Positions 22,604 through 63,834 of a stretch of DNA of 64,000 bases are shown here, one piece after another. The stretch is from Pseudoxanthomonas sp. PXM01 (lineage in GTDB: Bacteria > Pseudomonadota > Gammaproteobacteria > Xanthomonadales > Xanthomonadaceae). The notes beneath the pieces are model-generated. The model saw nothing but the letters and a program-made list of their open reading frames with translations. It made no database searches and was not told the DNA's origin. Position numbers and translations under genes: made by a program. How positions within the stretch are numbered: the stretch's first letter is position 1; every line of letters starts with the position of its first letter. The stretch is taken from assembly GCF_014851815.1 (NCBI RefSeq), contig NZ_JACVAJ010000003.1:62001-126000 (forward strand), in the 5' to 3' direction.

Positions 22604-23044
22604 TCAACCGGCGTCGGAAACCGGTTTGGTCGAAGAAGAAGGAGTGGGTAGCGGCGCGGGGGAATTCAAGCCCGGCGGCATTGTGCCGCCCGGTGCCGAT
22701 ACGGGCAATGCGCCGGCGCGCGCCAACACGCGTTCGAAGGTCGCGCGCAACTGGGCGGGATCGGCTTTCGCCGCGGGCGCACGGGCGACAACGACATAGT
22801 CGCCACCCCGCAGCGTGGCGCGGAGGCGACGGAAGTGTTCGCGCAACTGACGCTTGATGCGATTGCGGCCGACGGCCCGCGTATCGACCTTGCGGGACAC
22901 CGCCAGCCCAAGACGTGCAGAACCCTCGCCGGGGAGCCAGTGCAGGCTCATCAGCGGATCGGAGGTGCGGCGGGCCTGTTCGAACACGCGCGCATACTCG
23001 GCGCTTGCGCGTACCCGCGCGCTGCGCGGGAATGCCGTGCTCAT
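22604..23044 (-). CDS. rnpA: Ribonuclease P protein component
   Basis: This 146-residue basic protein joins the RNase P RNA to cut tRNA precursors. The RNA-binding signature [18 protein letters not shown] (RNR motif) and the opening [22 protein letters not shown] are typical. The C terminus has a roughly 30-residue Pro/Ser/Thr-rich extension after the core. The ATG at MSTAFPRS is used; a GC-rich hairpin lies only 10 bases upstream of it and no good Shine-Dalgarno is evident. It follows rpmH, as in most bacteria. Confidence 0.94.
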
Positions 23045-60557: not shown

Positions 60558-60647
60558 GGTCCAGTTCTGGCGGCGGCCCCGGCGATTGCAAGGCCGGGCC
60601 AGGATGGACAGACCATCCCGCGGGCGGGATGGTCTGCCGGTGCCGCG

Positions 60648-61607
60648 TCAGGCCGTCGGTTCGGCCTTCTGCGGCCGCGCCAGGCTCAGCGCCACGGTCA
60701 CCGCCAGGATCGCCGCCACCGTACCCAGTGCCCACGGGACCGGGATCTTGTAGATGTCGATCAGCAGCATCTTGGTGCCGATGAAGCCCAGCACCACCGC
60801 CAAGCCATAGGGCAGCAGATGGAAGCGGTCAGCCATGCCGGCCAGCAGGAAGAACATCGCCCGCAGGCCCAGCACCGCGAACACGTTCGAGGTCAGCACG
60901 ATGAACGGGTCCGAGGTGATCGCGAAGATCGCCGGGATGCTGTCCACCGCGAAGATCACGTCGGTCACGCCGATCAGCACCAGCACCACGAACAGCGGGG
61001 TGAACCAGCGCACGCCGTTCTCGCGCACGCTGAGCGCCGCACCGCGATAGCCATCGGTCAGCTTCAGGTGGCCGCGCATCCAGCGCAGTGCGGGGTTCTT
61101 CTCCAGGTCCGGTTCCTTGCCGGCGGCGAACCACATCTTGATGCCGGTCAACAGCAGGAACGCACCGAAGAGGTAGAGCAGCCAGTGGAACTTCGCCAGC
61201 AGCGCCGCGCCGGCGAAGATCAGGATGCTGCGCAGGACGATCGCGCCCAGGATGCCGATCACCAGCACGCGCTGGCGCTGCTCATCGGGCACGGCGAAGT
61301 AGGTCATCACCATCAGGAACACGAAGATGTTGTCGACCGCCAGCGCCTTCTCGACCAGGTAGCCGGTCAGGAACTCCAGACCCACGCGGTTGGCCTCGAC
61401 CAGGCCGGCGGTTTCATTGACGTACCACCACAGGCCGCCGTTGAAGGCCATCGCCAGCGCGACCCAGCCCAGGCTCCACCACATCGCTTCCTTGAACGTG
61501 ACCTTGTGCGGCCCGCCGTGGCGCATCAGCACCAGGTCGACCAGCAGCGCGACCACGACCAGACCGCCGAAGCCGGCCCACAACCAGGGGTTACCAATCG
61601 TTTCCAT
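60648..61607 (-). CDS. TerC/Alx-family membrane protein (probable manganese exporter)
   Basis: This 319-residue protein has about nine hydrophobic segments, and acidic motifs EKALAVDNIFVFLMVM and TDVIFAVDSIPAIFAI, the TerC family metal sites. Relatives export Mn(II), for example Alx in E. coli, and load it into secreted enzymes in Gram-positives. The start METIGNPW is used. A yybP-ykoY-type manganese riboswitch lies directly upstream on the same strand, which supports the metal role and gives a clear means of control. Confidence 0.92.
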   Translation of the reverse strand: METIGNPWLWAGFGGLVVVALLVDLVLMRHGGPHKVTFKEAMWWSLGWVALAMAFNGGLWWYVNETAGLVEANRVGLEFLTGYLVEKALAVDNIFVFLMVMTYFAVPDEQRQRVLVIGILGAIVLRSILIFAGAALLAKFHWLLYLFGAFLLLTGIKMWFAAGKEPDLEKNPALRWMRGHLKLTDGYRGAALSVRENGVRWFTPLFVVLVLIGVTDVIFAVDSIPAIFAITSDPFIVLTSNVFAVLGLRAMFFLLAGMADRFHLLPYGLAVVLGFIGTKMLLIDIYKIPVPWALGTVAAILAVTVALSLARPQKAEPTA

Positions 61608-61683
61608 GAGATTCCCGAAAAAAGTGGAGGACGGCCGCGGGCGCGGACATCTCGGGAACCGGGAAACGGGGATCCAGGGTATG

Positions 61684-61796
61684 CCTTCGCCATCGCGGCG
61701 AAGGTCTCGCTCACAGCCCGGTGGGCTGCCGTGGGACCGGAGCATTGCTGCTCGAAATGACGGCCGGCACGTTGGGAGCTACTCCCCTTCTGCGGT
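61684..61796 (-). ncRNA. yybP-ykoY (Mn2+) riboswitch upstream of the TerC-family gene
   Basis: On the minus strand the leader carries AAGGGGAGTAGC (loop L1, about 61776-61789) and, about 70 bases later, GAGCGAGACC (loop L3, 61703-61712). These are the two conserved loops of the yybP-ykoY manganese riboswitch. A strong stem CCTTCGCC/GGCGAAGG (61684-61704) overlaps the second loop and could be part of the expression platform. E. coli alx and mntP leaders have the same motifs. Boundaries are approximate, since I could not fold it by program. Confidence 0.85.
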
Positions 61797-61848
61797 GAAT
61801 TGTCCGGATGGCGCCCGGCACGGTCAACCGCGCGGGTAAAATGCGTTC

Positions 61849-63018
61849 ATGAACACGCCCAACCCGACCGTACGCCTGAAGAACGCCTGGCGTTCCAGCC
61901 ACCCGTGGATCTTCCAGAAACTGGTCGAGAAGCCCGCCCAGAAGCCCAAGCCCGGCAGCCTCGTCGAGGTGGTCGGGGTGGACGGGGAGTGGATCGGCCG
62001 CGGCTTCTACAACGGCCATTCGCGCATTGCCGTGCGCATCCTGGAGACGCATCCCGACATCCCGGTCGACGCCGGCTGGTTCTCGCGCAAGATCGCCGAC
62101 GCCGTGTCGCTGCGCCGCGACGTGCTGAAGTTGGACGCGATCACCGATGCTTGGCGCGTGGTGCATGCCGAGGGTGACGGCCTGTCCGGCCTGGTCGTGG
62201 ACCGCTACGGCGACCTGATCGTGGTCGAGTTCTTCGCCGCCGGCATGTTCCGCCACCGCGAATGGATCTACGAGGCACTGCGCGAGCAGTTCCCCGGCTG
62301 CCGTTTCCACAGCTTCGCCGACGAACACGTGCAGAAGCAGGAAAGCTTCGAGTTCCACGGCAACACCACCACTGAAGCGGCGGTCATCACCGAGTACGGC
62401 GTGAAGTTCCGCGCCGACCCGGCTGGCGCGCACAAGACCGGCTTCTTCGCCGACCAGCGCGAGAACCGCGAATGGCTCAGCCAGCAGGTCGAGGGCAAGA
62501 CCGTGCTCGACCTGTGCTGCAACACCGGCGGCTTTGCGGTGTACGCGGCGGCGCGCGGCGCGTCCGAGGTCATCGGCGTGGATATCGACCAGGACGTCAT
62601 CCAGATCGCCAAGGGCAACGCCAAGCTCAACAATGCGCGACCGAAGTTCGTGCAGGCGGACATCTTCCCGTACCTGCGCGACGCGGCGAACCGCGGCGAG
62701 CAGTACGACGTGGTGATCCTCGACCCCGCCAAGATGACGCGCGACCGTGAGCAGGTGATCGCCGCGCTGAAGAAGTACCTCGACATGAACAAGCTGGCGC
62801 TGGGCGTGGTGAAGCCGGGCGGCCTGTTCGCGACATTCTCGTGCACCGGCCTGGTCAGCGAGGAGCAGTTCCTCGACATGCTGCGCCGCGCCGCCTACTT
62901 CTCCGGTCGCACCATCCAGATCCTCAAGGTCGCCGGTGCCGGTCCGGACCATCCGTTCATGGCGCACGTGCAGGAATCGCGCTACCTGAAGGCGGTGTTC
63001 TGCCGCGTGGTCGACTGA
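61849..63018 (+). CDS. rlmI: 23S rRNA (cytosine(1962)-C5)-methyltransferase RlmI
   Basis: This 389-residue protein has an N-terminal PUA-like domain (VRLKNAWRSSHPWIFQKLVEKP, SLVEVVGVDGEWIGRGFYNG). A class I SAM methyltransferase follows, with the motifs VLDLCCNTGGFAVYAA, VIGVDIDQ, LDPAKMTR and FSCTGLVSEEQF. This is the RlmI/YccW arrangement; the Cys in FSCTG is a typical catalytic residue of cytosine-C5 methylases. The enzyme modifies 23S rRNA. The lipoprotein gene follows after two bases, so they are probably translated together. Confidence 0.92.
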   Translation: MNTPNPTVRLKNAWRSSHPWIFQKLVEKPAQKPKPGSLVEVVGVDGEWIGRGFYNGHSRIAVRILETHPDIPVDAGWFSRKIADAVSLRRDVLKLDAITDAWRVVHAEGDGLSGLVVDRYGDLIVVEFFAAGMFRHREWIYEALREQFPGCRFHSFADEHVQKQESFEFHGNTTTEAAVITEYGVKFRADPAGAHKTGFFADQRENREWLSQQVEGKTVLDLCCNTGGFAVYAAARGASEVIGVDIDQDVIQIAKGNAKLNNARPKFVQADIFPYLRDAANRGEQYDVVILDPAKMTRDREQVIAALKKYLDMNKLALGVVKPGGLFATFSCTGLVSEEQFLDMLRRAAYFSGRTIQILKVAGAGPDHPFMAHVQESRYLKAVFCRVVD

Positions 63019-63704: not shown

Positions 63705-63775
63705 CTGTGGGAGCGACGTAAGTCGCGATGACCCTGTGCAGCGATCTGCCATCGCGACTTGCGTCGCTCCCACAG
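63705..63775. repeat. REP-like palindromic repeat, copy 4
   Basis: CTGTGGGAGCGACGTAAGTCGCGATG and the reverse complement arm CATCGCGACTTGCGTCGCTCCCACAG, with one difference between arms (TAAG/TTGC). It is the GTAAG subtype, like copy 3. Confidence 0.9.
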
Positions 63776-63787
63776 GAAAGACCCACG

Positions 63788-63815
63788 AAAAAGGCGGGCC
63801 GAGGCCCGCCTTTTT
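63788..63815. terminator. Bidirectional terminator between the DUF1080 gene and fabV
   Basis: AAAAAGGCGGGCC and GGCCCGCCTTTTT enclose a two-base GA loop, with T runs at both ends. It lies directly beyond copy 4 of the repeat and serves both convergent genes. Confidence 0.93.
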
Positions 63816-63834
63816 CACTTACGACGCGAGGCGC

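Follow-up and report, generated by a model that had tools for sequence, protein, structure and literature searches.

The question raised by this locus is whether the leader of a terC/alx gene of Pseudoxanthomonas carries a manganese riboswitch and by which steps such an element could control the gene. The DNA analysed was one stretch of 64 kb (the window), and the features discussed lie on its minus strand unless stated otherwise. The initial annotation had assigned positions 61684-61796 to a yybP-ykoY manganese riboswitch. This interval spans the aptamer as delimited here (61790..61700) together with the hairpin that follows it (61704..61684), and the assignment gained support from the loops, from covarying helices, from a full-length match to the Escherichia coli alx leader and from a constant TerC-family context. 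Our reading is that a cis-acting yybP-ykoY Mn2+ riboswitch very probably controls terC/alx, with helix P1.1 and hairpin H1 forming the switch, Mn2+ turning the gene on and translation or Rho as the more likely output step.

The gene concerned (60648..61607) encodes a membrane protein of 319 aa belonging to the TerC/Alx family. Its TerC-family identity, as proposed in the initial annotation, was borne out by matches to PF03741 (TerC, 2e-51) and to TIGR03718 ('R_switched_Alx', 403.9 bits, cut-off 246.4); NCBI describes the latter as 'TerC/Alx family metal homeostasis membrane protein'. Among the best 80 of 192 relatives, the nearest named ones were Pseudoxanthomonas, with a TerC 96 % identical to that of the window, and a Lysobacteraceae MAG encoded a TerC that was 97 % identical. 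E. coli Alx is annotated as a Mn exporter. For the TerC proteins of Bacillus subtilis, the accessible part of one report describes metalation of secreted enzymes as well as minor efflux activity (PMC10550928), and TerC proteins may on this account supply metal to secreted enzymes besides exporting it.

Several other features were seen in the surrounding DNA. Separating terC from the rhomboid gene that follows it is an inverted repeat (60609-60636) whose 13-nt arms match perfectly around a loop of 2 nt; it would be either terminator-like or a boundary element. The divergent gene encodes an RlmI-like methyltransferase (below the equivalog cut-off); as a -10-like TAAAAT ends 7 nt before its ATG (61837-61849, plus strand), its mRNA may be leaderless. 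Farther away, a 26-nt inverted repeat that is 96 % complementary (CTGTGGGAGCGACGTAAGTCGCGATG, 63705-63775) resembles a dispersed REP-type palindrome, and it is followed by a further inverted repeat with a T-rich end (63787-63816).

Both loops quoted in the initial annotation were located on the minus strand, which is also the strand of the TerC gene. The first, GAAGGGGAGTAGC (61790..61778), comprises the P1.1 5' arm GAAGG, L1 GGAGUA and the beginning of P1.2, and the second, GAGCGAGACCTTC (61712..61700), comprises the P1.2 3' arm GAGC, the L1 3' side GAGA and the P1.1 3' arm CCUUC. The core motifs GGGGAGTAGC and GAGC[AG]AGACC each occurred once in the 64 kb window when both strands were considered, and the combined pattern GGGGAGTAGC-N10..40-GTCA-N30..60-GAGCRAGACC was found once in the window and in none of 100 dinucleotide shuffles. 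A spacer of 92 nt separates the aptamer from the ATG (61607) of the Alx-type TerC gene. On the 5' side of the aptamer, at a distance of 8 nt, lies a putative sigma-70-type promoter, TTGACC-17-GACAAT (61827..61799), the one promoter-like site in a scan of 61550..61900 (shuffle mean 0.0); in five aligned close relatives TTGACC was kept in all five and GACAAT in four. Given this position, the transcript would begin almost at the aptamer.

Conservation was assessed in 60 genomes of the family, which held 36 TerC places in 35 genomes; 30 of these loci, the window's own included, were fetched. The element was present in 29 of the 30 orthologues, with GAAGGGGAGTA and a downstream AGACCTTC in the same number of leaders; the remaining leader (L025) had neither core motif and lacked the element. 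The alignment A1 was composed of the 29 leaders without L025, and its rows were picked by the L1/P1.1 motifs, a choice that accounts in part for the invariance of GAAGGGGAGTA in A1. A structure of 27 pairs (P1.1, P1.2, P3.1, P3.2 and P4) left 95.3 % of the cells of this alignment paired, compared with 31-49 % in a slid-partner control, and at 15 of the 27 pairs both partners varied. The covariation score was 0.353 against 0.166 in shuffles (0/500 as high), and of five pairing measures compared with 500 shuffles, four were never equalled and the fifth was reached once. P1.1 was invariant throughout the 29 rows and, because the rows were chosen by its two strands, is untouched by the covariation test. 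P1.2 (GCUC/GAGC) showed paired double changes in two rows only (L013 and L028), and RNAalifold on A1 drew a GGAG/CUCC hairpin in its place.

For the exact stretch 61790..61700 the minimum free energy fold was identical to the comparative structure (-37.2 kcal/mol), that is, a yybP-ykoY-type (Mn2+) aptamer made up of P1.1/L1/P1.2, P3.1/L3/P3.2 and P4 and lacking P2; its folding energy was only mildly low (z -1.86, with 9/200 shuffles as good). The L1 strand of the GGGGAGUAGC type and the 3' GAGCNAGACC strand, which close P1.1/P1.2, were present, as was the second leg, P3.1-L3-P3.2. The latter carries an adenosine at 61758 (context GUCAUUUC) that was invariant in 29/29 leaders and is the candidate Mn2+-sensing adenosine of L3.

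The initial annotation had named RF00080 as the covariance model with which its reading should be checked, and a missing hit as grounds for rejecting it. No such hit was obtained: with Rfam 15 there was no match in the window at the curated cut-offs and none in 61550..61900 up to E 10, and the aptamer at 61790..61700 thus stays short of the RF00080 gathering score. The E. coli alx leader likewise gave no match, and the E. coli mntP leader scored 41.6 bits, below the cut-off of 45. (The outcomes of the 'Manganese' model for these two leaders are also listed under L063 377-499.) Since RF00080 also misses alx, for which a Mn response has been published, its negative result is uninformative and does not serve as a refutation; with alx missed and mntP scoring under the cut-off, we attribute the failure to the limited reach of the model and do not count an RF00080 match among the features that define the class. 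The printed RF00080 alignments cover 177 positions, with the L1 strands unpaired, a P2-like hairpin and a long unpaired 3' part.

The same behaviour was seen across the family. When the RF00080 places in the 60 genomes, obtained with stricter search filters, were compared by eye with the TerC leaders, a TerC leader was touched in a single genome (G031), by a partial match of 25.1 bits. Under laxer filters two of eight TerC leaders were matched (L026 with 25.1 and L033 with 17.5 bits), none of them above 45 bits. Other leaders in the 60 genomes are detected by RF00080, for example that of a GDT1-family gene (41.2 bits). A negative RF00080 search must therefore not be taken to mean that a Mn riboswitch is absent, and annotation based on this model would mostly show none before terC in this lineage.

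A covariance model (R1) was built from the 29 aligned leaders, with E. coli left out. Its score for the window, 96.0 bits, is high by construction, the window being a training sequence. The E. coli alx leader was matched over the full length of the model (positions 1-96) with 54.4 bits and E 1.1e-10, which was the best match outside the model's own order among the loci searched and links the element by homology to a leader whose Mn response has been published. E. coli mntP and L037 gave nothing at E<=1. Other RF00080-type leaders reached 23.6 (L001), 22.6 (L044) and 21.8 bits (L034) and so barely exceeded the 17.5 bits of a probable coincidental match at 22654-22746 of the window, which places the alx type far from these leaders. 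All 80 named relatives (the best 80 of 192) carried the element according to R1, each with both exact core motifs on the 5' side of the gene. One locus labelled Bacillus subtilis SK7B5 (L100) had a TerC 80 % identical to that of the window and a matching leader; it probably represents a contaminated assembly.

These results bear on the idea that a GC-rich leader with two short motifs resembles a riboswitch by chance. The missing RF00080 match at the thresholds tried would fit such a coincidence, but the pattern recurred in none of the 100 shuffles, the element is conserved and covaries, and R1 matches alx over its full length; a chance resemblance, already contradicted by these counts, is accordingly extremely improbable.

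The likeness to alx also raises the nature of the signal. In the accessible text of PMC9603457, E. coli alx reporters rise with Mn, and they rise 3.5-fold at pH 8.5 without added Mn, the two signals being additive. An element of the yybP-ykoY fold might then respond mainly to alkaline pH, with or without a contribution of Mn2+, instead of to Mn2+ overload, a possibility to which the position of alx as the best R1 match outside the order (among the loci searched) lends some weight. The conservation of the L3 adenosine in 29/29 leaders speaks against it, as does the account in the same partial source that the pH effect on mntP operates via tighter Mn binding. Alkaline pH as the main signal is thus quite unlikely, and we retain Mn2+ as the signal, with pH as a possible second one in view of the alx reporters.

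Within the order, R1 was searched against 121 genomes at E<=0.001 with stricter filters, settings under which weak members may be missed, and matched 39 places in 38 genomes, eight of which had contributed rows to the model. All 39 places lay upstream of a TerC-family gene, and 27 of them were 93-137 nt before a TIGR03718 match. The alx-type aptamer was also observed in front of other genes in these related genomes, namely three short TerC proteins and nine YjbE-type TerC-family genes. The short proteins were recognized as TerC by Pfam and begin 286 nt (L069) and 438 nt (L074) downstream of the R1 place, the third being L075. The nine YjbE-type genes (L076-L084) lie 58-76 nt downstream; two (L076 and L079) were identified by TIGR03717 and Pfam, and the others (L077, L078 and L080-L084) were assigned because their products are 69-78 % identical to the protein of L079. 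Of the 38 TIGR03718 genes found in the 121 genomes, 11 had no R1 match in front of them.

The 3' arm of P1.1 and the 5' part of H1 (61704..61684, CCUUCGCC-GCGAU-GGCGAAGG) have CCUUC in common, and the two helices are mutually exclusive through this sequence. When 34 nt were folded alone, an H1-type hairpin took three to five of the five shared bases in all 29 leaders; in folds of whole leaders H1 was not clean in at least L008, L015, L029 and L031. For the window, the aptamer alone formed P1.1, and with the downstream RNA included H1 replaced P1.1. The window leader folded freely to -88.6 kcal/mol and with the aptamer forced to -81.7 kcal/mol, a cost of 6.9 kcal/mol. In these folding models H1 thus wins over P1.1 when downstream RNA is present, as a ligand-dependent switch would need, and the overlap of P1.1 with H1 is likely to be the switch.

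The output step is less firmly indicated. Two scans of the window between the aptamer and the start codon found no intrinsic terminator (a GC-rich hairpin followed by a U-tract), and H1 itself has no U-tract. A long hairpin predicted at 61600..61667 encloses an SD-like GGGAA and the ATG and is a candidate translational platform. It was the same when the aptamer was forced, and the openness of the SD (0.22) and of the AUG (0.67) in the window leader was likewise unchanged; across the 29 leaders, the openness of both with a forced and with a free aptamer followed no consistent direction, as judged by eye. Because no terminator was found, translation or Rho is by exclusion the more likely output step, a preference held with modest confidence.

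It could also be argued that the element works through an intrinsic terminator in the style of Lactococcus lactis and Xanthomonas oryzae, and that the window has one which the scans missed. Termination control is described in the available portions of the reports on X. oryzae (PMC6754395) and L. lactis (PMC11087558), and a crude scan of the region from H1 to the start (a hairpin of <=-18 kcal/mol followed by at least four T in 9 nt) picked out 8 of the 29 leaders (L007, L010, L016, L018, L019, L023, L026 and L030). The window gave no terminator in either scan, and the corresponding stretch in its five closest aligned relatives is similar to its own, which makes a missed terminator rather unlikely.

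In the reading that we prefer, a rise in cytosolic Mn2+ would cause L1 and L3 to dock around the ion, with participation of the adenosine at 61758, and the docked loops would stabilize the closing helix P1.1 (GAAGG/CCUUC). Without Mn2+, H1 (CCUUCGCC/GGCGAAGG) would capture the 3' arm of P1.1. The alternation of P1.1 and H1 would then be the switch by which Mn2+ turns the gene on, and the output in this species would be translation or Rho rather than an intrinsic terminator. In published members, as described in excerpts of PMC6754395, Mn2+ is held between L1 and L3 by contacts with phosphates and with N7 of a single invariant adenosine, and its binding stabilizes P1.1; judged by position, 61758 is the counterpart of this adenosine, which is A41 in L. 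lactis (UCA-AUUC) and A48 in X. oryzae (the same excerpts). We infer Mn2+ binding, the direction of control and the output step, as well as the induction of this TerC gene by Mn that the initial annotation had suggested; the literature searched contained neither a Mn experiment on this gene nor work on this leader in Pseudoxanthomonas.

The element is real and well conserved, and as both its Mn riboswitch class and its gene context are known, it is an ordinary member of that class. The new points are small: the P2-less form that it has in common with alx, the inability of RF00080 to recognize this form and the uncertain expression platform. Somewhat short of an even chance is given to the wider proposal that the alx/TerC Mn riboswitches form a separate P2-less branch which is largely unseen by Rfam (as tested on E. 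coli alx and Lysobacteraceae TerC leaders) and hence under-annotated, and that Pseudoxanthomonas, without the terminator of some relatives, uses H1 together with translation or Rho. With this locus the lineage gains a terC/alx gene that is probably under Mn control. The P1.1/H1 pair makes the switch easy to test, and since some relatives have a terminator and others do not, the output step could be compared on a nearly identical aptamer.

Among known systems, E. coli alx (ygjT) is like the window's element in that it aligns with R1 positions 1-96 in all five helices, has no room for a P2 hairpin, carries GUCAUUAC in L3 and ends with GAGACCUU; the downstream genes belong to the same TerC/Alx family. 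It differs in having a non-standard outer P1.1 pair and one non-standard P4 pair, longer P3.2 and P4 arms and a GC content of 0.46, compared with 0.66 in the window's element.

The X. oryzae yebN (6N2V) and L. lactis (4Y1I) riboswitches have, according to the accessible part of PMC6754395, the same L1 and L3 legs with a Mn-sensing A in L3, and P1.1 acts as their switch helix (PMC6754395 and PMC11087558, both in part). The available text of PMC6754395 describes a four-way junction for these RNAs, whereas the RNA of the window, lacking the P2 hairpin, would have a three-way junction. The targets also differ, being yebN in X. oryzae (PMC6754395) and yoaB in L. lactis (PMC9190785) in the portions of these sources available, and TerC/Alx in the window. 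In L. lactis the 3' segment of P1.1 lies within the terminator stem (excerpt of PMC11087558); the overlap of P1.1 with H1 in the window is similar, but H1, unlike that stem, lacks a U-tract. Two YybP-ykoY clones from an X. oryzae library are mentioned in the accessible part of PMC3039613, where the source leader is unspecified.

The genome of the window holds a second Mn riboswitch before a GDT1/UPF0016-family gene (G000:C4:1515329-1515477, corresponding to L001 1501-1649). It is like the window's element in its L1 GGGGAGUAGC, its GGGCAAGACC end and its L3 GUCAACA, and unlike it in its scores (41.2 bits with RF00080, whose cut-off is 45, and 23.6 bits with R1) and in the P2-type hairpin present in its alignment. 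In Vibrio parahaemolyticus, yybP-ykoY elements precede both terC and mneA, a gene of the TMEM165 family, Mn induces the two genes, and the RNA-seq data gave no sign of termination, in each case as reported in the accessible text of PMC13274385; the same pair of targets occurs in the genome of the window.
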